Assembly (NCBI RefSeq): GCF_014653215.1
Contig: NZ_BNAI01000001.1
Location: forward strand, 1,017,012-1,081,011
From: Pseudolysinimonas yzui
GTDB lineage: Bacteria > Actinomycetota > Actinomycetes > Actinomycetales > Microbacteriaceae
Length of the DNA stretch: 64,000 bases
Reading direction: 5' to 3'
Numbering within the stretch: the first letter of the stretch is position 1; every line of letters begins with the position of its first letter. Below are positions 17,394-35,836 of this stretch, piece by piece. The notes beneath the pieces were generated by a model. It was given only the letters and a program-made list of their open reading frames with translations, searched no databases and had not been told where the DNA came from. The translations under genes and the position numbers were made by a program.

Positions 17394-17777
17394 TTGGCAC
17401 TTGACGCTTTCGGCCGCACCGTCGACGAGGCTCCCCCCGTGTTCGATCAGCACAGTGTCGAGCCGGAGATCCGCGACATCGCGGAAGTGCCGGCGGTCGA
17501 AGTCATCAACACCGTCGCCGTGCATCTGCTCTCCGCCGCGGCCGTGCAGTGCGGCCTCGCCGACGATGACCCGCGCGTCGACCTCGACGAGGCCCGCAAG
17601 CTCATCGACGCCCTCGCCGGCCTCGTGACGGCGGCCGCCCCGCACCTCGCCGACGTGCACGCCCGCCCCCTGCGCGATGGGCTCCGCTCGGTGCAGCTCG
17701 CGTTCCGCGAAGCCTCCGCCATCCCCGACCCGATCGGTCAGGGTCCCGGCGAGAAGTACACCGGCCCCGTCAACTAA
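17394..17777 (+). CDS. DUF1844 domain-containing protein
   Basis: A 127-residue cytoplasmic protein of unknown function, conserved near infC in Actinobacteria. The DUF1844 core reads IAEVPAVEVINTVAVHLLSAAAVQCGL and the C-terminus ends GEKYTGPVN. TTG at 17394 with GAGGA 8 nt upstream is used; a GTG at 17439 (MFDQHSVEPE) is an alternative. It ends one base before the stop of the convergent deaminase gene, so the accessory cassette abuts it but leaves it intact. Confidence 0.8.
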   Translation: MALDAFGRTVDEAPPVFDQHSVEPEIRDIAEVPAVEVINTVAVHLLSAAAVQCGLADDDPRVDLDEARKLIDALAGLVTAAAPHLADVHARPLRDGLRSVQLAFREASAIPDPIGQGPGEKYTGPVN

Positions 17778-17778
17778 G

Positions 17779-20103
17779 TCAAGGCCTACGCGAGATGAGC
17801 TGAGTGCGGACTGTTGGGTCGGTCAGGTCGAAGCCGCCCTTCCGGGCCGTCGGCGCACACCAGGCACGCGATCTATCAAGCACTGCTGTCACACCTCGGT
17901 CGCCGGAGGCGAAAAGGTGGCCGTACTCTCGATGAACTGTCGTTGCAAAGATTCCCGGGTCATCCGAATTGACTGTGATCGGGCGATCCTCGGCCAACCA
18001 GCGCCTCGCTGGCAGTTCGGCATAACTTCCGGCCTCTGTCGTGATCAGATTGGAGGTGGGGCAAGTTTCGATCACCCCACTGCGTTGATCAAGCAGAGCC
18101 CAAGACAGCTCGCGCATTGCGTGCGTGCCTTCGATGAGGACTCCGACGAGCGGATCGAGAGCCACGCCACTCCCGAGGCCCCCAAGTGTCGCTGTCGTCC
18201 CTTCATTGCGCGCGAGGAGAACCGCGAGCTTCTCTTCTGCTGTGGCCGCTGCAAACACCTCTGGCGGTATTTCATTGGTGCGAAAGGTGTAACCCTCTCC
18301 CTCCCGTCGAAGTACGTTGAGTGAAGCCCAATACTCTCGTTGGAACGGCAGCCGCACTGCCTGCGTAACATCTGCCGAACGATCGAATGCCGCGTAGTCG
18401 GGGATGTGCGTTACGACGTCCCAAAAGCGTTCAACTGCGGCGACGGAGACCGCCCCAAAGTCGTGGGCCGCGATTGTCGCGAGATCTCGAAGGATCTCGG
18501 TGGGGGCGCATCCCCGAAGCTTCGCAACCCATTGGCCGCGCGAAAGGTCGTCATCTGCGTTACCGAGTGCGAGGGCATGCCCAACTCTCGCAACCGCGAC
18601 CTCGAAGAAGCTCAGCACCTCAAGCACACGGCGCACACCCGTGCTTGGAAGCGGATACGCCTCACCAGCATGAACCGTGTAGAGCGGTTCGATCGCGTGC
18701 GGCTGAGCCCGACCGGCGATCTCGGCGAAGGCGATCGCGAACGGCCAGTTCGGCGCCGCGTTCTCGTAGCCGACAACGTCGAACGATGACACTAGGGGCG
18801 CCAAGCGAGGTTGGTCTCGCAATAGGCAGTGCCACGCCGCGACGACCCGCCACGCGTTAGCTAGCGACACAGATGTGTCGCGCGCCGACGGCTCGGACCT
18901 CGCAGGGGGCACCGAGCTCTCGCGACGAAAGCTCACTGGCACTTCGATGTAACGCAACGGCAGATTGTCGCGGTCGATCGACTCGAAGACCCCCTCGAGA
19001 AGGGCGTCGAGAGACTGTGCGATTGCCTCACCGCCGCGCGTCGGCGATGCACGGCTGTGAGCCGAGTCGACCTCCCAGTCGACGGTCCGCCTCAGTTCGG
19101 CGGCTTCGAGGCTGCCGAGCGCACAAATGGACTTTCGAGCGAGGTTCACGCCGGTGCGGAGAGCGGTATCCCGTAGGCGACCGGAGAGACGGAACACTCG
19201 GGTGAAACCGTCAAGCCCCTCTTTGATTTCAGGTACCAGGACAGTGTTGGCCTGCACGAGAATTTGCCATGCACCGTCAACCAGGTAATCGACGACGTCG
19301 GAACCGCCCCCCTGGCTGACCCGGTCGAGGTAGCCTTCCAAGAAGGCTCCGAGCGCCGTGACGTCGCCCACACGGTCGACGCGCGACTGCGAATGCGCGA
19401 TCAGGTTGGAAACTGATCGGGGCGCGTCTGGTCCAATGACTTTCTCAGCTTCATCCCAGACCCGCCTCCAATAATCGCGGCGGTTGATCGCTGACCTAAG
19501 TTCCTCATGGATCGCCACGTCGTCGAGGTTCTCGCCGTCGTCGAGATGCGCCGCCGTGTTTAGAGCCACGACGCAGGCGAGCGCAAGAGTCACGAGGTTG
19601 AGCGGTCGGGAGCCCGAGGTCATAACGGACTCACGGCTTGCGACTCCCTCATCCCAGTCGCGGGTCAGCTCGATGAGCAGTTCAACGGCAGAGAGGCAAG
19701 CGCCGTAGTGGACGTGGGCATCAACCGGAAGCCCCAGTTCCTCGATGCCGACTCCTGGGTCCACTCTCTCGGCACTCTGTGGCTTCCAAAGCACGCCTAG
19801 AGCTGCGCGAGCGGCATGATCTCGCGCACTCGCCGCCTCTTCAGGGATCTCCGCACGACTGAGGCAGGAACGTCGCGCAATCACTGCCAACCCCAGCGTC
19901 GGTCTGGCGGTGACGGATAGCGATTCTCGATGGAGGGCAGCGATGCGGTCGGCGAGATCGTTCTGCGGTTCGCTACGCCATCTCACGGCCTCATGGAAGG
20001 CCGGTTTCTGGAAGAAGTCCTCGACGTCGTCGTCCGGGCATGGGGCGAGGTCGGTCGCAAGAGCGACGGCCACCGCTGCGTGTAGCGGGAGTTCGCGTCT
20101 CAC
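17779..20103 (-). CDS. Large adenosine deaminase-like protein, RADAR RdrB candidate
   Basis: A 774-residue protein with every motif of metal-dependent adenosine deaminases: the HxH metal site in DAHVH (129-132), HAGE (478-481, with the catalytic Glu), RVGHAL (506-511), CPTSN (681-685) and NSDDP (712-716, metal and catalytic Asp). The gap between HxH and HAGE is about 350 residues, against about 200 in ordinary adenosine deaminases, matching the enlarged RdrB type. RdrB forms large shells that deaminate adenosine, ATP or RNA during phage infection. The GTG start overlaps the ATPase stop (GTGA). Low GC and atypical codon use suggest transfer. A stand-alone nucleoside deaminase role is less likely given length and partner. 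Confidence 0.85.
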   Translation of the reverse strand: MRRELPLHAAVAVALATDLAPCPDDDVEDFFQKPAFHEAVRWRSEPQNDLADRIAALHRESLSVTARPTLGLAVIARRSCLSRAEIPEEAASARDHAARAALGVLWKPQSAERVDPGVGIEELGLPVDAHVHYGACLSAVELLIELTRDWDEGVASRESVMTSGSRPLNLVTLALACVVALNTAAHLDDGENLDDVAIHEELRSAINRRDYWRRVWDEAEKVIGPDAPRSVSNLIAHSQSRVDRVGDVTALGAFLEGYLDRVSQGGGSDVVDYLVDGAWQILVQANTVLVPEIKEGLDGFTRVFRLSGRLRDTALRTGVNLARKSICALGSLEAAELRRTVDWEVDSAHSRASPTRGGEAIAQSLDALLEGVFESIDRDNLPLRYIEVPVSFRRESSVPPARSEPSARDTSVSLANAWRVVAAWHCLLRDQPRLAPLVSSFDVVGYENAAPNWPFAIAFAEIAGRAQPHAIEPLYTVHAGEAYPLPSTGVRRVLEVLSFFEVAVARVGHALALGNADDDLSRGQWVAKLRGCAPTEILRDLATIAAHDFGAVSVAAVERFWDVVTHIPDYAAFDRSADVTQAVRLPFQREYWASLNVLRREGEGYTFRTNEIPPEVFAAATAEEKLAVLLARNEGTTATLGGLGSGVALDPLVGVLIEGTHAMRELSWALLDQRSGVIETCPTSNLITTEAGSYAELPARRWLAEDRPITVNSDDPGIFATTVHREYGHLFASGDRGVTAVLDRSRAWCAPTARKGGFDLTDPTVRTQLISRRP

Positions 20104-22436
20104 TCGCGGTCGTGAGCGGCGGCGGAGCGTCGAATCGATTCGAGCTCCTCGTGCGCTACGGCGAAGAGTTCATCACGCGCCTTCGCTGTCTGGGCTTGAG
20201 CCGGCTTGCCTGCTCCCGGCTCGCGGCCGTCTAGAGCAGTTGAAACCTGGAGCGCCAGTTCGCCGAGGCGCTTAGCGGCACGTGACTGGATAGCCTCGAT
20301 GTGACGATCACGCAGCTTGTCAGCGGAGCTGAGGTCGAGACGACCGAGTCCATCGAGAAGCGGCTCAATCCACTGTTCCCCGAGGTTCTCACGAATCCGC
20401 GTCTCCAGCGCGCGCACGAGCCCTTCAGTCTTGTGACGGCGTTTCGCGCGGCGGACGACATCGATCCACCACTCCCACGAGTGGTCGTCACCCGACTTAC
20501 CTAGAAACATCGGGTGAAATCCGAGTGGAAGGTATCGCTCGAACCATGCAACGAAGTCGCGATCTCGCTGCGACCTGCTGTTCACTGCAGCCTCATACGC
20601 GGTCGCTAGATCCGCATGCACACGGTCGAGAGCCTGATTCCGCCGTCTTGTCCACGTGGCACCGGTTGGAAGGTCGGGGTCAAGAACGCGACCGAGACGT
20701 GTTACTACAGAGGTGAGTTCGGATCGTTGGACTGCCGCGACGAGCATGAGATGCGCGAGAGCAACACGCTCCGTGACTTGGGTCGTGATTTCGAGCGACT
20801 TTTCCACCGCGGCGAGCCGCTCACAGGCCCACTCCCAATAAGCGAAGAAGGCGTAATAGTCGGAAAATCCTTCCCACGTCGGAAGGGCGAGAAAAAAGTG
20901 ATCGGCAACTTTGCCATCCAAATACACGTCCGCCAAGCGGGTCCCGAAACCGCCAGCGTAAGGGCGGCGGCCACGGACTTGAATATCCGGGTTCAGCGTG
21001 CGAGCCGCGACATCAAGCATCAAGAGAACAGATTGCGCAAGCTCCAGGGGCAGCTTGGCACCTTGTCCGATGGAAAGGACCGGATGGAAGCGGCGATAGA
21101 AGACTACATAGTCGGTCCCGACATCGACCTGACGCGGCGACTCACTCCAGGGTTGAGTCTTGATCTCGCTGAAATCTGCATCGACGGACTCCGCATCGGC
21201 ACCAGAGAATCGCACGAGATTCTCGAGTTCGTTGGCGAGGGCAGGGTCAACGTGACGCAGCGACACGTGCAGCAATTCCAGAGCGACTCTCCAAGCGGCA
21301 GCAGACCCACTCGACTTGTGGCGCTCAATTGCCTTGTAAAGAAACTCGAGATCCCGAAGGCCGGATGGCAGAGCGGAAGCGTACGGTGTAACGCCGAGGC
21401 TGGCGTTTCGTCGGCGGTCTCCGAATGCCTTAGGTAGCGGAACTCGGAAAAGTTCTGAGAGTGCCGTCTCCTCGTCGGTGATATGGCTGGGAAGCCAAAT
21501 CTGACCCAGGAGTCCCTCTAGGGACTCCGTCGCGCCCACCGGCGTGAACGTGAGCTTTGCCTCATCGCTCAGGGGATGGAGGTGAACTCGGCGGTGTGTT
21601 GGAAGGCTCTTTGTTAGGGCCGCGTCAGCGAACTGAATCGCGTCACGGTAGCCCACATCACCGGCGGTGCCATCGCGCACCGAAGCCGCAAACGACCTCT
21701 GCGCATGCTCGTAGCTCAGAGCCGCAATGCACACAACGCGAGGCGTCGAGGCTATGCGCCTGATGTCGAGCAAGATTTGGGGAAGCATGCCTGGCGCGAG
21801 ATCAGCATCGTCGACAGGGATCACAAGCGTGCGCCCGGTACTCGCGAGTAGGCCATCAATTAGCGCCCGCCACTCGTCAACGAAACCTAGGCCGCGGCGC
21901 GAAACACTGACGAGCGCTTGAGCTTGCTCATCGAGGGTCCAGGCTCCGGCCGTCCCCAGAGTTCCGTGCCGTCCGGAAGCTTCCTTGAAGGCAAGTTCGT
22001 CAAGCCAGCCCGCCGCAGAACGTTCCTCACCTCTGTAGGAGATGCGCCTGCCACGAAGATCCTCGTCTTCGTTGATGCTCGCCATCATGCTGGCCAAGAG
22101 GACGCTATAAAGCGTGTCGCCTCTGTCAAAGAACTCCGGACGAATCACGCGAGTTACGAGGTAGCGGTCGTCCAACTCGAGTTGGGCGCAAACTTGCGCC
22201 AGAGTGTACGTCTTGCCGCTCCCTCGGTCGCCAAGAATCGACACTGTTTGGCACGGATCCAGCGCCGCTTCGGAACCGAGCCCTCCAGCTTTCTGACCGT
22301 CGGCGGACTCGAACCCGTCTCGCTCGGCAAGTTCGGCGACATACTCCACGACTCGGGCTACGGAGTCCGCGATTCGTCCGGAGAGCCGCACGCGGTTTCG
22401 CTGAGGGGACGCCGATGCCGTCGTTGTAGGGCTCAC
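20100..22436 (-). CDS. P-loop ATPase, RADAR RdrA candidate
   Basis: A 778-residue AAA+-like ATPase. Walker A is GDRGSGKT (69-76) and the Walker B-like strand is TLVIPVDDADLAP (203-215), with acidic residues D209, D210 and D212. The remaining 550 residues look mostly helical and have no signature I recognise. Length, P-loop position and coupling to a giant adenosine deaminase fit RdrA, the ring-forming sensor/ATPase of RADAR, encoded upstream of rdrB as here. GTG start, overlapping the small upstream gene by 4 nt. A hand-counted line (20461-20520) is 53 percent GC. Confidence 0.82.
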   Translation of the reverse strand: MSPTTTASASPQRNRVRLSGRIADSVARVVEYVAELAERDGFESADGQKAGGLGSEAALDPCQTVSILGDRGSGKTYTLAQVCAQLELDDRYLVTRVIRPEFFDRGDTLYSVLLASMMASINEDEDLRGRRISYRGEERSAAGWLDELAFKEASGRHGTLGTAGAWTLDEQAQALVSVSRRGLGFVDEWRALIDGLLASTGRTLVIPVDDADLAPGMLPQILLDIRRIASTPRVVCIAALSYEHAQRSFAASVRDGTAGDVGYRDAIQFADAALTKSLPTHRRVHLHPLSDEAKLTFTPVGATESLEGLLGQIWLPSHITDEETALSELFRVPLPKAFGDRRRNASLGVTPYASALPSGLRDLEFLYKAIERHKSSGSAAAWRVALELLHVSLRHVDPALANELENLVRFSGADAESVDADFSEIKTQPWSESPRQVDVGTDYVVFYRRFHPVLSIGQGAKLPLELAQSVLLMLDVAARTLNPDIQVRGRRPYAGGFGTRLADVYLDGKVADHFFLALPTWEGFSDYYAFFAYWEWACERLAAVEKSLEITTQVTERVALAHLMLVAAVQRSELTSVVTRLGRVLDPDLPTGATWTRRRNQALDRVHADLATAYEAAVNSRSQRDRDFVAWFERYLPLGFHPMFLGKSGDDHSWEWWIDVVRRAKRRHKTEGLVRALETRIRENLGEQWIEPLLDGLGRLDLSSADKLRDRHIEAIQSRAAKRLGELALQVSTALDGREPGAGKPAQAQTAKARDELFAVAHEELESIRRSAAAHDRE

Positions 22437-22768
22437 TGCGCCACCTTGCCGTCGGATTCGCGCGCGGTGCGATTGTGCTGTGCGACAGAATCTCTCACCT
22501 GTACGCGCACGTCCTCATAGGCCGCCGCCCCGGCCACCTGAATTTCCGCATCCGAGATGTTCTCTCGAATCCACTCGATCGCTCGGTCATCGCCGTCCTC
22601 AAGCGCTGCGATGAACTGCTGGAGACGAGCCGGGCTGAGTCCCCGGGCGAGCCGCTCTCCGGCCACCAACCGAATAGTCTCAACAACGTCGCGCGCAAGC
22701 TGTTCGTTGTGACGACGGTCAGACGCGTCCAAGCCGACGCTCTCTATGAACGACTGGTCTACGCGCAC
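22433..22768 (-). CDS. Small helical protein leading the RADAR-like operon (DUF5663-like)
   Basis: A 111-residue acidic, predicted all-helical protein with no membrane segment. The pattern (FIESVGLDASD, then LARGLSPARLQQFIAALEDGDDRAIEWIRENI) resembles DUF5663, a short family of unknown function; this is by eye. GTG start with AGGAG 6 nt upstream, the best ribosome site of the operon. A TAGGAT at 22799-22804 on the minus strand could be its -10. Its end overlaps the ATPase gene by 4 nt. It is neither SLATT- nor Csx27-like, the membrane accessories known with RADAR, so it may be a new accessory, regulator or inhibitor. Confidence 0.6.
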   Translation of the reverse strand: MRVDQSFIESVGLDASDRRHNEQLARDVVETIRLVAGERLARGLSPARLQQFIAALEDGDDRAIEWIRENISDAEIQVAGAAAYEDVRVQVRDSVAQHNRTARESDGKVAQ

Positions 22769-22866
22769 TCTCGGCTCCTGATCCCTGACCTGCGCCCGAT
22801 CCTAGTAGAAGCCACCGACCCCCGGTCGCCATTGCAGACGCGTTGGGGCGCGCCTCAAAATCACCC

Positions 22867-23619
22867 TCAGAGCGACTCGAGGCGCACCGCGATCGAGTCG
22901 ACGCGGTCGAGGATGACGGGGGATGCCGCCCAGGCATCGCCGAGTCGCGCGAGCAGGGCATCCAATTCGGTGCGGTCGAGGCCGCTCTCCAGGGCGAGCT
23001 GCACGAGCAGTTCGGGCCCGGTGAGGCGGGCGTCGGGGTCGCCGGGGGCGAGTTGCACGGCCCGCACGGCCGACTCCGCCGCCGATGCCGCGAGGAACGC
23101 GTCGAGCACCCGCTCGTCGAGGAAGCATGGGATGAACGTCGCACCGGTCGCGAGCGCCTCGAACGCCGTGCGACGCAGGGCGAACTCGGTCGGCGACCCG
23201 GGGTCGAGCACGATCGCGCCAAGTTCGTCGGCTGCCGCAGCGAGGGCCGCCTGCGGTGCGGTCACCGGGATGGGCCGCGCGGCCGGATTCCAGGTGCGCA
23301 TCGCCTCGACCGACGAGAACACGGGCAGCACGTTGCGCCCGGCGGGCCCGGCGACGGTGACCAGCGCGAGCTCCTGAGTCTTATCGACCAGCTGTCCGTG
23401 CGGTCCGATGCCCTCATCGCCGCGGTCGGTCACGAGGGGAACCAGCACCCGAGCCGCGCCAAGCGCCAGGAGTACCTCCGACATCCCGAGCTCGCGGGCC
23501 CGGAAGCGCAGCACCGCTTCGATCAGCCGCGCATCGGCCGAGCCGTCGTCATCCGCCGACGGGTTCGCGTGAAAGGAGCGCCCGTCGAACGGGATGCCGG
23601 CGGAGTCGGCGTGAGCCAC
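22867..23619 (-). CDS. SseB family protein
   Basis: A 250-residue cytoplasmic protein with an SseB-type domain: LVPLVTDRGDEG and LVTVAGPAGRNVLPVFSSVE match the enhanced-serine-sensitivity family, whose biochemical role is unknown. GTG start. It lies 7 nt after priA and probably belongs to the histidine transcription unit, as in related genomes. The RADAR-like cassette lies just downstream, separating it from DUF1844. Confidence 0.82.
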   Translation of the reverse strand: MAHADSAGIPFDGRSFHANPSADDDGSADARLIEAVLRFRARELGMSEVLLALGAARVLVPLVTDRGDEGIGPHGQLVDKTQELALVTVAGPAGRNVLPVFSSVEAMRTWNPAARPIPVTAPQAALAAAADELGAIVLDPGSPTEFALRRTAFEALATGATFIPCFLDERVLDAFLAASAAESAVRAVQLAPGDPDARLTGPELLVQLALESGLDRTELDALLARLGDAWAASPVILDRVDSIAVRLESL

Positions 23620-27446: not shown

Positions 27447-28130
27447 GTGGACGACACGCAAGACCAGGACGCCGCAGCAGACCGGCCCCAGACGAGACGA
27501 CGCACGTCGCTGAGCGAGAAGCAGACGGCCATCCTCGAGATGATCCAGCGCTCCGTCGCATCGCGCGGCTATCCGCCGAGCATGCGCGAGATCGGGGATG
27601 CCGTGGGGCTCTCGTCGCTCTCGAGCGTCACCCACCAGCTCACCCAGCTCGAGCTATCGGGCTACCTGCGGCGCGATCCGAACCGGCCGCGGGCGCTCGA
27701 AGTGCTCATCGAACTGCCGGGTACCGAATCCTCCGACTCGGGCATTCCCGTCGGCGACGCCGCCATGGTGCCGCTCGTCGGGCGCATCGCCGCCGGCATC
27801 CCGATCACCGCCGACCAGCAGATCGACGAGGTCTTCCCGCTCCCCCGTCAGCTCGTCGGCAAGGGCGACCTGTTCATGCTCAAGGTCGTCGGCGAGTCGA
27901 TGATCGACGCGGCGATCTGCGACGGCGACTGGGTCGTCGTGCGACAGCAGAAGAGCGCCGAGAACGGCGAGATCGTCGCAGCCCTGCTCGACGGGGAGGC
28001 GACCGTCAAGGTGTTCCGCCAGCGCGACGGCCATGTCTGGCTGCTGCCGCGCAACTCGGCGTTCGAGCCGATCGTCGGCGACGACGCCGAGATCCTCGGC
28101 AAGATCGTCGCGGTGCTGAGGTCGGTCTAG
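27447..28130 (+). CDS. lexA: SOS response repressor LexA
   Basis: A 227-residue repressor-protease. A winged helix (about 21-85) recognises SOS boxes and the C-terminal S24 domain self-cleaves on RecA filaments. The cleavage bond is Ala116-Gly117 in RIAAGIPI, the catalytic pair Ser151 (GESMIDA) and Lys188 (ATVKVF). GTG at 27447 with GGAGG 4 nt upstream is chosen, since earlier in-frame starts lie inside or next to the promoter. It overlaps the convergent ROK gene by 4 nt. Confidence 0.95.
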
Positions 28131-29275
28131 CGCACGACGCTGCGGTCGAGCACGTAGTCCTGAATGGCGACGACCGCTGCTCCGCGGCACCATTCGGCGT
28201 CGTCACCGTCGGTCACGAAGAGCCGAACCTCGGACGCCCGAGAGTCGCGGTCCCCCGCGATGCCCTCTCGGACGGCGTCGGCCGCGACGGTCGCGAGCCG
28301 CACTCCCTCGCCGCCGAGTACGACGAGTTCGGGCATGGTGAGGTTGGCGACAGCCGCGATGAGCCGCCCGAGCGCGCGCCCGGCATCGTCGACGATCCGA
28401 CGTGCGGCCGGCTCCTCAGCCGTCGCGAGGTCGAGAACCTCGGCGTACGAGACATCCCGGCCGAGTGCGCCTGTGGCGGCGGCGACGACGGCGCTCTCGG
28501 TGAGAACGCTCCGAGCGCATCCGCGGTGACCGACGGGACAGAGCGCCCCGAACGGATCGAGTGGCCAATGGCCGACCAGACCAAGCCCCGCATCGTCATT
28601 GCGAACGACCTCACCTCCCACCATCAGCCCGTAGCCGACCCCCGCACCGAGGGTGATGACGGCGAAACGGTCGGCCGAGCGCGCGGCGCCGAACCAGTGC
28701 TCGAACTCCGTGAAGGCGACGAGATCGTTGTCGACGACGCTTCGGATCCCGGTGGCCGCCGCGACCAGTTCCGCGAGCGGCACGTTCTCCCACTCCAGGA
28801 ACGGCGCGGACTGCACGACACCCCGCCTGTCGACCCGCCCGCCGACACCGACCCCGAGGCCGGTCATCTCCGATCCTGCCGGAGTGAGCCTTTCGGCGAG
28901 GCGCGCGATGTCCGCAACGACCGAGTCGGGATCACGTGCGAGCAGGGGCGCCGAGGCGACTTCTTGGATGCTCGCCCGGAAGTCGGTGCGGGCTGCGATC
29001 ACCCGGTCGCCGGTGACCTTCATGCCGATGAACGCCCGCGAACCCGGGATGACATCGAGGGGCCGCGATCGTCGACCGGCGCGGCCTTCGGCGCGCTCTT
29101 CGCCCTCGACCAAGAGCCCGGCTTCGATGAGCGGTGTGCTCAATCGGGTGAGTGAGCCGGCGGACAAGTCGAGCTTTCGCGCGATCTCGGTGCGCGAGAT
29201 GGGGCCGTTGATGAGCACTTCGAGCGCGACCGCGCGGGTGGCCCCGCCTGTCGGCGTCCAGCTGTGCGTATTCAC
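28127..29275 (-). CDS. ROK family transcriptional repressor of the sugar locus
   Basis: A 382-residue regulator with an N-terminal winged helix ([21 protein letters not shown]) and a C-terminal ROK domain ([19 protein letters not shown]). The zinc motif is usually CxCGxxGC; here CPVGHRGC lacks the second Cys, so zinc binding may be altered. GTG at 29275 with GAAGG 6 nt upstream is preferred over the ATG at 29281, which directly abuts that site. It is divergent from the ABC importer and likely represses it until a sugar ligand binds. Confidence 0.88.
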
Positions 29276-29339
29276 CGGCATCCTTCGTTGGTTTTGCTTC
29301 GGAATGAACAGCCGCCATTCTTGCACGAGAACGCCCCAC

Positions 29340-29368
29340 TTGACGAGCGATTGCTTTTGCAATAGAAC
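29340..29368 (+). promoter_or_regulatory. Sugar operon promoter with ROK operator in the spacer
   Basis: -35 TTGACG (29340-29345) and -10 TAGAAC (29363-29368) are 17 nt apart. The spacer carries the inverted repeat ATTGC-TTTT-GCAAT (29350-29363), placed to block polymerase. With a ROK repressor gene diverging 65 nt away this is the best operator candidate. A related TTGGTTTTGC lies near the ROK start. Confidence 0.65.
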
Positions 29369-29429
29369 TAACTCGATGCGTCGTCCTCTCGTTGCACCGA
29401 GAGGTTTCGATATCCGACAGGAGACTGCA

Positions 29430-30695
29430 ATGAAGCGTCCAATCCGATCCGTGGCGGTAGGTGCCGCCGGAACGGCCCTCGCCCTCGCCCTCGCCGCCTG
29501 CGGCGGTGCCCCCGCCGACACCGGCGGGCCCGTCACGATCACCTTCTGGGGGTCGTACGGCAACGGCGGGAACTCGGCCCAGCAGGAAGTACTCAACGAC
29601 ACACTCATCCCCGCGTTCGAAGAGGCGAACCCCGGCATCCAGGTCGAGTACGTCGACGTGCCGTACGACGACCTGCTCCAGAAGCTCACGACGAGCGCCG
29701 CAGGCGACGAACTCCCCGACCTCGTTCGTGCGGATCTGGGTTGGGTGCCTCGCTTCGCCGAGCTCGGCGTGCTCGTTCCGCTGTCCGAGGTCATGCCCGA
29801 CTTCCAGGAGCTCGCCGACGCGACCTACCCCGGCGTGCTCGCGACGAACCTGTACGACGGCGAGTACTACGGCTTGCCGCTCGATACCAACACCCGCGTG
29901 CTCATCACCAACCCGGACGCTCTCGCTGCGGCCGGCTGGGATGCCCCGCCCGCGACGTTCGACGAGTTCCTGGAGCTCGGCGACGACCTCGACGGAACCG
30001 GGTTCACCTTGTTCGCCGACGGCGGCCTCGGGGCGTGGAACCTCATGCCCTGGATCTGGTCGGGTGGCGGCGACATCGCCGACGAGGGTCTCACCACCTC
30101 GAGCGGAGTGCTCGACTCGGACGAGAACATCGCGACGGTGCAGATGCTCGTCGACCTCTACCAGGAAGGTCGCGCATCGAGCGGTCTCATCGGCAACGCC
30201 GGCGCCGTTTCGACGAGCGAAGGTCTCCCCGGCGGCCAGTACGCCACCATCTTCGACGGCCCGTGGATGAACGGCATCTGGGAGAGCCAGTTCGCCGACT
30301 TCGCGCCGATCTACTCCCCGATCCCCGCCGGTGACGGCGGCTCGGTGAGCGTCGTCGGCGGCGAGGACATCGTGCTGACAGCATCCTCGGAGCATCAGGA
30401 GGCGGCGCTCGAGTTCATCCGGTTCACCCAGACCGAGGAGTTCCAGCTCGCCCTCGTACCGACCGGCCAGCTCACCGTCATCAAGGCGCTCGGCGAGCAG
30501 CAGGTCGAGCTCGTGCCGTACTACGAGGTCTTCACCCGACAGCTGGAGACTGCGAAGAACCGTCTCGCCATCACCCGCGCGTCCGAGGTCGACTCGATCC
30601 TCAACGCCGAACTGGTGCCGGCCTTCGAAGGCACCGTCTCGGTCGAAGAGGCCCTCCGGAACGCGGCGGCCAAGATCGACGAGCTGCTGGGCTGA
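29430..30695 (+). CDS. Sugar ABC transporter substrate-binding lipoprotein
   Basis: A 421-residue group 1 extracellular solute-binding protein. The signal peptide ends in LAAC, giving a lipidated Cys at 24. Typical segments follow: TFWGSYGNGG, GLPLDTNTRVLITNPDAL and FDGPWMNGIW. ATG with AGGAG 6 nt upstream. The enzymes encoded downstream act on alpha-1,6-glucans, so isomalto-oligosaccharides are the probable ligand (inference). First gene of a six-protein transport and hydrolysis set. Confidence 0.9.
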   Translation: MKRPIRSVAVGAAGTALALALAACGGAPADTGGPVTITFWGSYGNGGNSAQQEVLNDTLIPAFEEANPGIQVEYVDVPYDDLLQKLTTSAAGDELPDLVRADLGWVPRFAELGVLVPLSEVMPDFQELADATYPGVLATNLYDGEYYGLPLDTNTRVLITNPDALAAAGWDAPPATFDEFLELGDDLDGTGFTLFADGGLGAWNLMPWIWSGGGDIADEGLTTSSGVLDSDENIATVQMLVDLYQEGRASSGLIGNAGAVSTSEGLPGGQYATIFDGPWMNGIWESQFADFAPIYSPIPAGDGGSVSVVGGEDIVLTASSEHQEAALEFIRFTQTEEFQLALVPTGQLTVIKALGEQQVELVPYYEVFTRQLETAKNRLAITRASEVDSILNAELVPAFEGTVSVEEALRNAAAKIDELLG

Positions 30696-30697
30696 GC

Positions 30698-31642
30698 ATG
30701 ACCTCGTCTCTCACGGCGTCCCCCCGGGCGGCTTCGGCCGCCCGGGGTGGCGCCCGGCGCCGCATCCCGGTCGCGCCGTACCTGTTTCTCGCGCCGGGAG
30801 TCATCCTGTTCGGCGCGACGATCCTGTATCCGATCACGCAGGCCGTGCAGATGAGCTTCTTCGACTGGAAGATCGTCGGTTCGGCCGCGAGCGAATTCCT
30901 CGGCCTCGACAACTACGTGCGGGCATTCCAGGACGAGCAGTTCTGGCTGTCGTTCGGCAACACCGTCTTCTACCTGGCGGCGACGATCTTTCCGCAGATC
31001 ATGCTCGGCCTGCTCGTCGCCCTGCTCCTGCACGCCCACAGCCCGGCTCGGCCGCTGTTCCGCGTGCTCTACTACCTCCCCGTCGTGACCAGCTGGGTGG
31101 TCGTGTCGCTGTTGTTCCGCTTCTTGTTCGCGGATGCCGGACTCGTCAACTTCGTGCTCGGCGACCTGTTCCACCTCACCGATGGATCGACGTCGTGGCT
31201 CGCCGACCGCTGGACGGGCATGATCGCGATCTCCGCCCTCGGCATCTGGAAGGGCGTGGGCTGGTCGATGATGATCTTCCTCGCCGCCCTTCAGGGCGTG
31301 CCGCGCACGCTCGAGGAGGCGGCACTCGTCGACGGCGCCAACGCCGTGCAGCGCTTCCGCGCGGTGACGGTGCCGGCGATCCGTGCGGCACTCGCCTTCG
31401 TCACGATCATGCTCGTGATCGGCGGCTTCAACGTCTTCATCTCCGTGTACCTGATGACCGGTGGGGGGCCGGCGGGCGAGACCGACGTGCTGCTCACCTA
31501 CATGTACTACCAGGCCTTCGGCAATCTCGACTTCGGGTACGGCGCGGCCATCGCGGTCATCCTCACCCTGCTGGTCTTCGCGCTCTCGGTGCTGCAACTG
31601 CGGCTGTTCCGCGACCGCGACGGGGCGGGGGTCGCCGGATGA
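30698..31642 (+). CDS. Sugar ABC transporter permease (MalF/UgpA type)
   Basis: A 314-residue permease with about six membrane helices; the coupling EAA loop reads EEAALVDGANAVQRFRAVTV. It starts 2 nt after the binding-protein stop and overlaps the next permease by ATGA. No ATPase gene is present in this locus; a shared MsiK/MalK-like ATPase elsewhere is presumably used, as usual in Actinobacteria. Confidence 0.92.
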   Translation: MTSSLTASPRAASAARGGARRRIPVAPYLFLAPGVILFGATILYPITQAVQMSFFDWKIVGSAASEFLGLDNYVRAFQDEQFWLSFGNTVFYLAATIFPQIMLGLLVALLLHAHSPARPLFRVLYYLPVVTSWVVVSLLFRFLFADAGLVNFVLGDLFHLTDGSTSWLADRWTGMIAISALGIWKGVGWSMMIFLAALQGVPRTLEEAALVDGANAVQRFRAVTVPAIRAALAFVTIMLVIGGFNVFISVYLMTGGGPAGETDVLLTYMYYQAFGNLDFGYGAAIAVILTLLVFALSVLQLRLFRDRDGAGVAG

Positions 31643-32487
31643 ACCGCCGCACCCCTCGCCGCACCACCGCCCTCGTGGTGCGCCTCCTGCTGCTCACCGC
31701 AGGGGCACTCGTGATGGTGACGCCATTCCTCTACCTGCTGGGGATCTCGTTCACCCCGAACGCGTTCGTGCTCACCACGCCTCCGCAGTTCATCCCCGAG
31801 TCTCCGACCCTGGACAACTATGCACAGGCGCTCGAAGCCCAGGACATCCCGCGCGCCTTCCTCAACTCGCTCGTCGTGGCGATCGTCTCGACCGCACTGT
31901 CGCTGCTGCTGAGCTCGATGATGGCGTTCGCCTTCGCCCGGTTCGTCTTCCCCCTCAAAGAGACGATCTTCCGCATCCTGCTGGTCGGGCTCATGATCCC
32001 CGCGGTCCTGCTGCTGATCCCGCAGTTCGTGCTCGCCAAACACCTCGACCTGCTCGACAGCTATGCGGGGCTCGTGGTGTTCTACGTCGCCGGGTCGCTC
32101 GCGCTCAACACCTTCCTGCTGCGCGGCTTCTTCGAGTCGATCCCCGCGGAACTGGATCAGGCGATGGAGCTCGACGGGGCGGGGGTCTGGACCCGCTACT
32201 GGCGGCTCACGCTCCCGCTGGCCAAGCCCGGGCTGGCGACGGCGACCATCTTCACCTTCCTGGGGGTGTGGGACGAGTTCACCTGGGCGCTCACCATCCT
32301 CAATGATCCCGAGATCCGCACCCTGCCGATCGCGATCCGCTTGCTCGCCGGGGTCGGCAACAACGCGGTGCAGTGGGGCGTCGTGTTCGCGGCGTCCGCG
32401 ATCGCGGTCATCCCGGTGGTCGTCGTCTTCCTGGTGTTCCAGCGGTACTTCGTGCAGGGCCTCACGGCCGGCGCGGTGAAAGGATGA
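31639..32487 (+). CDS. Sugar ABC transporter permease (MalG/UgpE type)
   Basis: A 282-residue permease with six membrane helices. The EAA loop reads DQAMELDGAGVWTRYWRLTL. The ATG overlaps the stop of the partner permease, and the stop overlaps the GH66 start, so the operon is tightly coupled. Confidence 0.92.
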   Translation: MNRRTPRRTTALVVRLLLLTAGALVMVTPFLYLLGISFTPNAFVLTTPPQFIPESPTLDNYAQALEAQDIPRAFLNSLVVAIVSTALSLLLSSMMAFAFARFVFPLKETIFRILLVGLMIPAVLLLIPQFVLAKHLDLLDSYAGLVVFYVAGSLALNTFLLRGFFESIPAELDQAMELDGAGVWTRYWRLTLPLAKPGLATATIFTFLGVWDEFTWALTILNDPEIRTLPIAIRLLAGVGNNAVQWGVVFAASAIAVIPVVVVFLVFQRYFVQGLTAGAVKG

Positions 32488-34118
32488 ACATGCTCAGCGA
32501 CCCGATGCTGCTGCCCCGGCGGGCGGTCGACGTTCCGGGCGCCCCGATCGCGATCGAGGTGCGCAACGCTCCCGCGGGCGGTCGGGTGACCGTTCGGCGA
32601 CTCGGTGATCCCGTCGCCGAGCAGAACCGCGACGGCGACAGTGACATCGTCCTCGAGGGGCTGCCCGAGGGCGGCTACGGTGTCGAACTGGCTCTGTCCG
32701 ACGGGCGGCTCGCCCGCACGGCCGTCGACGTGCGAGCGGATGTGCGCACCCGGCTGCGCTACGGATTCGTCGCCGCCTATCCGCCGGGCGCCGACCCCGC
32801 GCCGATTGCGGACGTGGTGCGCCGCCTGCACCTCACCGCCGTTCAGTTCTACGACTGGGCCTACCGGCATGCCGACCTGCTCGGCGGAGGCGAGGAGTAT
32901 CGCGACGCGCTCGATCAGCCGGTGTCGCTCGAGACGGTGCGCGCCTACGCGGCCGCCGTGCGGGATGCCGGAGCCGATCCGCTCGGCTACGCGGCCGTCT
33001 ATGCCGTCGGGCCGGAGGAATGGCCCGAGTGGGAGCAGCACGCCCTGCTCGCTCCGTCAGGGGCGCCTTATGCGCTCGGCGACTTCTTGTTCCTCGTCGA
33101 CCCGGCCGCGCCCGAGTGGCTCGCACACTTCACCGCCGACCTGCGGCGTTCGATCGACGAGGTGGGGCTCACCGGCTTCCACCTTGACCAGTACGGCTAC
33201 CCGAAATATGCGCGCCGCCCCGACGGGGTCGTCGTCGACGTCGCCGAGTCCTTCGTGCGCACCCTCAACGGAATCCGTCGGGCCCTGCCCGCGGCACGGC
33301 TGGTGTTCAACAACGTCAACGACTTCCCCACCTGGCGCACCGCGAAAGTGGCGCAGGACGCGCTGTACATCGAGCCATGGGAACCGCAGACGACCCTCGG
33401 CGCCCTCGCCGCGACCGCGACCCGGGCCCGACTGTCGGGCGGCGGGCTCCCCGTCGTATTCGCTGCGTATCAGCACGTCTACGACACCGCCGACCGCGCA
33501 GCCGCAGACCGCGCGACGGCGCTCACCATGGCGACGCTGTACTCGCACGGCGCGACCCAGCTGCTCGCGGGAGAGAACGGACGGGTGCTCGTGGACCCCT
33601 ACTACGTGCGCAACCACACGGCCGAGTCCGAGACGCTCGACCTGCTGACCCGCTGGTACGACTTCGTCGTCGAGCACGACGAGGTGCTGCTGGCACCGGG
33701 CATCGCCGACGTCACCGACGCCTACGTCGGCGGCTACAACAACGACTGCGACGTGGCTTACACCTCCGCGGAGGTGAGCGAGGAGGCGACCGCCGGCCGG
33801 GTCTGGCGACGCATCACCGACGCCGGCGGCCGCCTCGTCGTCCACCTCGTCAACCTCGTGGGCCAACCCGACACGACATGGGATGCGGCGCGTGCGCCGT
33901 TCGGAGACCCGGGGGCGGGGCGCATCCGGGTACGGCGTCTCCTCGGATCGACTCCCCGCATCCGGGTCGCGGATCCCGACGGCTCCGGCCGCCTGGAAGA
34001 ACTCGAGGTACGCCTCGACGGCGACGCCGCCGTTGCGGACCTCCCGACGCTGCGCGCCTGGCAGCTCGTGGTGATCGATCCCGCGGAGCTCGTGCGGGAC
34101 GGAGCCGAACTGCCGTGA
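32484..34118 (+). CDS. Intracellular glycoside hydrolase family 66 protein (dextranase-like)
   Basis: A 544-residue protein without signal peptide. GH66 members cut alpha-1,6 bonds in dextran or make cyclic isomaltosaccharides. The likely nucleophile is Asp235 in GFHLDQYG and the acid/base Glu297 in YIEPWEP; GENGRVLVDPYYVRNHT further on is also family-like. A beta-sandwich of about 90 residues precedes the barrel and another follows it. Cytoplasmic location between permease and glucosidase genes suggests it shortens imported isomalto-oligosaccharides. Start ATG overlaps the permease stop; an ATG 6 nt later is possible. Confidence 0.82.
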   Translation: MNMLSDPMLLPRRAVDVPGAPIAIEVRNAPAGGRVTVRRLGDPVAEQNRDGDSDIVLEGLPEGGYGVELALSDGRLARTAVDVRADVRTRLRYGFVAAYPPGADPAPIADVVRRLHLTAVQFYDWAYRHADLLGGGEEYRDALDQPVSLETVRAYAAAVRDAGADPLGYAAVYAVGPEEWPEWEQHALLAPSGAPYALGDFLFLVDPAAPEWLAHFTADLRRSIDEVGLTGFHLDQYGYPKYARRPDGVVVDVAESFVRTLNGIRRALPAARLVFNNVNDFPTWRTAKVAQDALYIEPWEPQTTLGALAATATRARLSGGGLPVVFAAYQHVYDTADRAAADRATALTMATLYSHGATQLLAGENGRVLVDPYYVRNHTAESETLDLLTRWYDFVVEHDEVLLAPGIADVTDAYVGGYNNDCDVAYTSAEVSEEATAGRVWRRITDAGGRLVVHLVNLVGQPDTTWDAARAPFGDPGAGRIRVRRLLGSTPRIRVADPDGSGRLEELEVRLDGDAAVADLPTLRAWQLVVIDPAELVRDGAELP

Positions 34119-35836
34119 AGAAACCGCTCATCGCCGGCGGAGGGCCGGCGGGATGGTGGCGCTCGGCCGTCGTCTACCAGGTCTACGTGCGCAGTTTCGC
34201 CGACTCCGACGGTGACGGGATCGGCGACCTCGGCGGCATCCTCTCGCGGCTCGATCACCTCGAGGACCTGGGCGTGGACGTCGTCTGGCTCGGTCCGTTC
34301 TACCCGTCGCCGCATGATGACAACGGCTACGACATCAGCGACTACCGCGGCGTCGACCCCGTGTTCGGAACCCTCGAGCAACTCGACACCCTGCTCGCCG
34401 AACTCCATCGACGCGGCATTCGGCTCATCCTCGATCTCGTCGTCAACCACACCTCCGATGAGCACCCCTGGTTCCGCGAGTCGTCGAGCGGCCCGCAGAG
34501 CGCCAAGCGCGACTGGTACTGGTGGCGTCCGTCCCGGCCCGGTTGCGAACCGGGGACACCGGGTGCCGAACCGAACAACTGGGAGAGCTTCTTCTCCGGG
34601 CCGGCATGGGAGTTCGACCGCGCGAGCGGAGAGTATTTCCTGCACCTGTTCTCGCGGCGACAGCCCGACCTCAACTGGGAGAACCCGGACGTGCGCGAGG
34701 CGGTCTACGACATCATGAACTGGTGGCTCGACCGCGGAGTCGATGGCTTTCGTATGGACGTCATCAACTTCATCTCGAAGGACCCGCACCTCCCCGACGG
34801 CGTGGTGCGACCGGGTGCAGAGTTCGGCGACGGCTTCCCGTTCTTCGGCTACGGCCCTCGCATCCATCGCTACGTACAGGAGATGCACCGCCGGGTGTTC
34901 GCACACCGTCCGGGGGCCTTCCTGACCGTCGGGGAGATGCCCGGCGTCAGCCCTGAGCAGGCCGCGCGATTCACCGACCCGGCCCGCGGAGAGTTCGACA
35001 TGGTCTTCCAGTTCGAGCACATGGGCGTGGACCAGAGCGAGTCGAGCAAGTGGCAGCCGGTCCCCTTCGAACCGCCGCGGCTCATCCAATCGCTGGTGCG
35101 CTGGCAGGACGCCCTCGCCGAGACGGGGTGGAACAGCCTCTACTGGAACAATCACGACCAACCGCGAGTCGTCAGTCGGTTCGGGGACCCTGAGCGGTAC
35201 TGGTACGAGTCGGCGACTGCGCTCGCGGCCGTGCTCCACCTGCAACGCGGCACCCCCTTCGTCTATCAGGGCGAAGAGCTCGGGATGACGAACATGCCGT
35301 TCACGTCACTCGACGAGGTGCGCGACATCGAATCGCTCAACCACGCGCGCAAGCAGCCGGAGGCAGACGCGCTCGACCGCATCCGCCGGGTGGGGCGCGA
35401 CAATGCCCGCACGCCGATGCAGTGGACGGACGGGCCGGCCGCCGGGTTCACGACGGGAATCCCGTGGATCGGTGTGAACCCCAACTCGTCCTGGCTCAAC
35501 GCCCGGTCCCAGCGGCGCGCGAAACGAAGCGTCTACGAGTTCTACCGCCGGTTGATCCAGCTGCGACACACCCTTCCGGTCGTCGTCGACGGCGCATTCG
35601 TTCACCTTCCGGTACCGGAGTCGTCCGTCTTCGCATTCGTTCGACGGCGCGACGACGAGGTGCTGCTGGTGACGGCGAACCTGAGCAGCGAACCGGTCGG
35701 AATCGACCTCGCGCAGACCCACGAGGACGCCTCGCCGGGCCGCACGTGGACGGTGGAGCTCGGCAACTACGACGACGCCGATCCGGAAACACTCCGGGCG
35801 TGGGAGGTCGTCGTGACGCGGGCGCTCGCCCTCTGA
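34115..35836 (+). CDS. GH13 alpha-glucosidase, probably oligo-1,6-glucosidase
   Basis: A 573-residue family 13 enzyme. Region I DLVVNHT (107-113), nucleophile Asp215 in DGFRMDVINF, acid/base Glu274 in TVGEMPG and Asp348 in NNHDQP are all present. The residue after the nucleophile is Val216; Val there is typical of enzymes that prefer alpha-1,6 linkages, while Ala or Thr marks alpha-1,4 specificity. It would release glucose from isomalto-oligosaccharides. GTG start overlapping the GH66 stop (GTGA). It ends one base before the convergent hydrolase gene. Confidence 0.9.
   Translation: MKKPLIAGGGPAGWWRSAVVYQVYVRSFADSDGDGIGDLGGILSRLDHLEDLGVDVVWLGPFYPSPHDDNGYDISDYRGVDPVFGTLEQLDTLLAELHRRGIRLILDLVVNHTSDEHPWFRESSSGPQSAKRDWYWWRPSRPGCEPGTPGAEPNNWESFFSGPAWEFDRASGEYFLHLFSRRQPDLNWENPDVREAVYDIMNWWLDRGVDGFRMDVINFISKDPHLPDGVVRPGAEFGDGFPFFGYGPRIHRYVQEMHRRVFAHRPGAFLTVGEMPGVSPEQAARFTDPARGEFDMVFQFEHMGVDQSESSKWQPVPFEPPRLIQSLVRWQDALAETGWNSLYWNNHDQPRVVSRFGDPERYWYESATALAAVLHLQRGTPFVYQGEELGMTNMPFTSLDEVRDIESLNHARKQPEADALDRIRRVGRDNARTPMQWTDGPAAGFTTGIPWIGVNPNSSWLNARSQRRAKRSVYEFYRRLIQLRHTLPVVVDGAFVHLPVPESSVFAFVRRRDDEVLLVTANLSSEPVGIDLAQTHEDASPGRTWTVELGNYDDADPETLRAWEVVVTRALAL

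Follow-up and report, generated by a model that had tools for sequence, protein, structure and literature searches.

A DUF5663-like gene at the head of a divergent RADAR-like cassette in Pseudolysinimonas yzui, a candidate partner gene of the RdrA-like ATPase

The genome of the actinobacterium Pseudolysinimonas yzui contains an operon in which a small gene precedes genes for an AAA+ ATPase and an adenosine deaminase resembling RdrA and RdrB of the RADAR system. This raises the question whether the small protein belongs to the ATPase-deaminase machine and what it does there. The analysis covers a stretch of 64,000 nucleotides (contig NZ_BNAI01000001.1, positions 1,017,012 to 1,081,011), referred to as the window. 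The original prediction had proposed the small protein as a possible new RADAR component; the results described below point to a probable regulatory role at the side of the ATPase.

The small gene (22433..22768, minus strand) encodes 111 aa and starts with GTG, as had been described. The ribosome binding site AGGAG (22775..22779, minus strand) is located 6 nt before the start codon, and the stop codon shares exactly 4 nt with the start codon of the rdrA-like gene (GTGA, 22433..22436, minus strand), an overlap that was likewise predicted and indicates translational coupling. The small gene had also been credited with the best ribosome binding site of the cassette. The site itself is present, but with an anti-SD energy of -6.6 it is tied with that of the rdrA-like gene (-6.8), while a value of +0.4 was obtained for the rdrB-like gene. 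A sigma-70-type promoter could not be found, which says little in an actinobacterium. With a G + C content of 0.75/0.43/0.71 at the three codon positions, the small gene resembles its rdrA-like and rdrB-like partners; the neighboring host genes differ from all three, having a third-position G + C content of 0.81-0.91. This common deviation from the host flanks suggests a common foreign origin of the three cassette genes. The small ORF is a real gene.

The protein was expected to be helical, acidic and devoid of a membrane helix, all of which agrees with the analysis. The structure predicted from a shallow alignment is all helical (mean pLDDT of 83), 21 acidic residues stand against 15 basic ones, and neither a transmembrane helix nor any hydrophobic stretch of membrane-spanning length could be detected. 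SLATT and Csx27, the accessory proteins described with RADAR, are membrane proteins, and the small protein lacks this transmembrane character.

DUF5663 (PF18908) is the sole Pfam match of the small protein (E-value 2e-4). As the score of 22.3 bits does not reach the gathering score of 23.7, the protein is named DUF5663-like. The match is collinear and helical, covers residues 9-67 of the small protein and corresponds to a protein size of about 100 aa. The resemblance was upheld with an independent DUF5663 profile, which was built from four other actinobacterial members with the window protein left out and gave the small protein 20.1 bits, compared with 14.1 bits for the best of 5000 shuffled sequences. 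DUF5663 is rare in this group of bacteria, with two carriers among 148 further genomes of the order and none among 295 further genomes sampled across the phylum. The family is not named in the literature searched, and we know of no function for it.

The second gene of the operon encodes the RdrA-like AAA+ ATPase (20100..22436, minus strand; 778 aa) with the Walker A motif GDRGSGKT at residues 69-76 and the acidic Walker B residues 209 and 210. It is directly followed, with a 4-nt overlap at 20100-20103, by the gene for the RdrB-like adenosine deaminase (17779..20103, minus strand; 774 aa), which contains the zinc ligands H130, H132, H478 and H509, the catalytic E481 as well as D714 and D715. 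The curated NCBIfam equivalogs NF041743 and NF041744 give only 31.5 bits for the RdrA-like protein (cut-off 600) and 48.5 bits for the RdrB-like protein (cut-off 800). Judged by sequence, the locus is a divergent relative of RADAR and was not filed as an equivalog.

For a comparison beyond these models, 86 RADAR loci were collected: 78 from a genome collection with one genome per species (84,980 species), seven on plasmids and one from the same phylum (G649). A broad RdrB alignment was too variable for scanning, whereas a trimmed one served to scan the collection. Profiles of RdrA and RdrB were then built from these loci without the window proteins. The RdrA profile scored the RdrA-like ATPase at 78 bits, compared with 0.1 bits for the best shuffled decoy and 5.9 bits for a KAP-like ATPase, and the RdrB profile scored the RdrB-like deaminase at 123 bits (best decoy 5.8). 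The RdrA match spans the AAA+ part of the protein. The Walker residues and the invariant arginine 361 are kept. For the C-terminal half (residues 321-778), which is mostly helical in a low-confidence model, no sequence match to other RdrAs could be detected. The top 19 PDB matches of the predicted RdrA-like structure are all RdrA, and in a comparison by Z score RdrA structures reach 17.7-21.3, followed by Cdc6 at 12.4; the alignment behind the model included RdrA sequences. In the RdrB-like protein, H130, H132, H478, H509 and E481 fall into invariant alignment columns, and the zinc histidines and the glutamate agree with those given for the E. coli enzyme (PMC9994260).

The ATPase and the deaminase are thus genuine but extremely divergent RADAR relatives. 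Their identity to the RADAR members sampled does not go beyond about 14-22%, and in a tree of RdrB proteins (n=85) the end branch of the window protein is by far the longest (5.0, median 0.46). Its exact place in the tree is unsure; by its sequence, it is a RADAR relative in a lineage of its own. Single-sequence scans of plasmids, viral contigs and genome contigs revealed no full-length relatives of any of the three proteins, and scans of 396 genomes of the order and 249 of the family returned no relative besides the window itself. Two matches were rejected by eye, one being a KAP-like ATPase (G119) and the other an ordinary adenosine deaminase (G018). A divergent two-gene RADAR of the same phylum (G649; L012 2412-7725) likewise scores far below the curated cut-offs and has no small gene before rdrA.

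The borders of the cassette could be defined by comparison with two related genera (G832 and G830), in which the site is empty. There, only 53 or 14 nt separate an SseB-like gene from a small gene in convergent orientation, behind which infC is located. In the window, the same flanks, i.e., the SseB-like gene upstream (22867..23619, minus strand; assigned by eye) and the small convergent gene downstream (17394..17777, plus strand; DUF1844-like by eye), are kept and lie 5.09 kb apart. The additional DNA (17778..22866, minus strand) comprises exactly the small gene, rdrA and rdrB, with no further gene visible. As the insert missing from the sister genera holds exactly these three genes, they move as a unit. 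No integrase, tRNA or clear flanking repeat marking the insertion was found.

RADAR is described as rdrAB alone, with Csx27 (rdrABC) and with SLATT (rdrABCD) (PMC7699616). The window shares with standalone RADAR the RdrA fold, the ADA-type deaminase RdrB, the gene order, the gene overlap and the catalytic residues; it differs by its low sequence identity, its scores below the equivalog cut-offs and the extra soluble head gene. Small accessory genes are common to the window and to the Csx27- and SLATT-associated forms. However, the accessories of those forms are membrane proteins, whereas that of the window is soluble, DUF5663-like and present in none of the described subtypes.

The expectation that DUF5663-like genes recur before rdrA-like genes was not borne out. 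None of the 86 other RADAR loci contains a DUF5663-like frame, further matches being only the window's own copies; 64 of the 78 collection loci have an rdrA with at least 400 nt upstream, and some loci are cut. Likewise, no DUF5663 match above the cut-off was obtained in 76 whole RADAR-bearing genomes. One weak match of 20 bits in a RADAR genome lies beyond position 133,000 of its contig, and therefore elsewhere, as the RADAR contig there measures 63 kb. Four viral contigs with RADAR matches, whose gene order was partly read and which are not counted among the 86 loci, also show no DUF5663-like frame. The set of small gene, rdrA and rdrB was found only once. This is no fair refutation, since the RdrB of the window has the longest branch and the sample includes no close sister locus.

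A different gene was found at the same place in nine RADAR loci of Pseudoalteromonas, Shewanella and Photobacterium (L032, L041, L052, L053, L055, L059, L065, L077 and L081). In these marine gammaproteobacteria, a coupled gene directly before rdrA encodes a membrane protein 196-301 aa long, in which two to four transmembrane stretches are predicted. The place before rdrA is thus used for accessories, and the window fills it with a soluble one. No confident Pfam family was assigned to the two membrane proteins scanned. As a minor observation, these proteins have a common C-terminal tail, ending on KGLKK or KGLRK in most cases. Two ORFs that precede rdrA, in L034 and L085, were not regarded as accessories, because by eye they seem to be pieces of a broken rdrA.

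Further information on the small protein came from other occurrences of its family. Four further DUF5663 proteins were detected in the phylum, and in every case a P-loop ATPase is involved, whose gene is coupled to that of the DUF5663 protein, neighbors it or is fused with it. Including the window, the sample consists of five loci. In G126, DUF5663 is the C-terminal fusion part of an AAA/TPR protein. The gene of a DUF5663 protein of ~104 aa in G105 has the identical GTGA overlap onto a gene for a DUF87-like ATPase. In G154, a distance of about 24 nt separates the DUF5663 gene from a TrwB/HerA-like ATPase gene before it, and on a conjugative plasmid of Rhodococcus ruber the DUF5663 gene follows 138 nt after a DUF87 gene. 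Assuming, as our own estimate, that some 20% of all genes neighbor a P-loop ATPase, chance would produce four of four about once in 600. By association in these few cases, P-loop ATPases appear to have in DUF5663 a general partner domain, in agreement with the GTGA coupling in the window. The association argues for an action of the small protein on the ATPase and for nothing further. Unlike the window, the DUF5663-ATPase pairs of actinobacteria have ATPases of the HerA/TrwB type and no deaminase, and JAB/ThiF genes lie nearby in two of three loci (G154, L114 3535-14755; G105, L013 1-8998). G154 additionally encodes a protein of 1552 aa in which Rpb2-like and Rpb1-like domains of RNA polymerase are joined. 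The element as a whole is an unusual one.

The reading that we favor, tentatively and with somewhat less than even confidence, is that the small protein is a soluble third RADAR component which, docked onto the RdrA-like ring, governs how the ring assembles or becomes active. It would be translated first, in step with the RdrA-like ATPase through the GTGA overlap, and bind to the ring. The ATPase-deaminase machine may then be held idle until phage infection, upon which adenine nucleotides would be deaminated by the RdrB-like enzyme, just as RdrB of known RADAR converts ATP to ITP (PMC9994260). We infer that the cassette serves phage defence. Restraint is considered more likely than activation, since a cell would suffer from nucleotide deamination that runs without control, and since the small gene comes first and is coupled to the gene of the ATPase. 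For defence by canonical RADAR two genes suffice (PMC9994260), so that RADAR in general does not need the small protein.

Instead of controlling the ring, the small protein could be an adaptor that binds a phage product and switches the RdrA-like ring on. The 4-nt overlap and the three-gene insert fit this equally, and the C-terminal lobe of known RdrA has been proposed as a sensing lobe (PMC9994260), so that sensing may be rearranged in a protein whose C-terminal half has no detectable similarity to other RdrAs. Yet these lobes are poorly conserved in known RdrAs anyway (PMC9994260), nothing indicates a ligand, and DUF5663 also stands beside HerA/TrwB-type ATPases, where phage sensing is not expected; an adaptor of this kind is therefore unlikely. 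Slightly less probable still is a chaperone that assists the RdrA ring or the RdrA-RdrB complex in folding or assembly, itself remaining outside the regulated machine. Early synthesis coupled to RdrA would suit a chaperone, and the best structural rows for the model of the small protein belong to RbcX, a Rubisco assembly chaperone. However, the Z scores of 5-6 are at the noise level for helical bundles, against which the search tool itself cautions, and a Foldseek search gave no match at an E-value under 1; RbcX, GamS and the other structural neighbors were set aside as noise. Moreover, other RdrAs assemble without such a protein (PMC9994260).

The single find with RADAR would fit a passenger, i.e., an unrelated gene, such as an operon regulator, captured by chance at the operon head. 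We regard this as improbable, as the insert consists of the three genes only, the small gene is coupled by 4 nt and G105 likewise has a GTGA overlap between its DUF5663 gene and that of an ATPase. That the frame is open merely by chance is very improbable indeed. An antisense frame is also open across the small gene and no close homologue of its product exists in any collection searched, but the ribosome binding site, the overlap, the partner-like codon pattern, the matches to Pfam and to the independent profile and the confident helical model all speak against a chance frame.

Should the small protein be a soluble partner coupled to the ATPase, it would provide a handle on both the restraint of RADAR and its phage sensing, and would give DUF5663 its first role. 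With the cassette, RADAR gains a lineage that is missed by present family models and defence finders or receives scores far below their cut-offs. A wider interpretation, which we consider possible but doubtful, would make the cassette a deeply separate RADAR lineage with the soluble DUF5663 protein as an obligatory third subunit gating the AAA+ ring, and DUF5663 a general control module of P-loop ATPases in defence and conjugation-type systems.

Two observations concern the surroundings of RADAR-like loci. In an alphaproteobacterial MAG (L024 8681-12531), the RADAR locus is followed by a long regular repeat array, CRISPR-like by eye. In the window, an ordinary cluster of a ROK-type regulator, a sugar ABC transporter and a glycoside hydrolase (28127-35836, by eye) adjoins a lexA-like gene.
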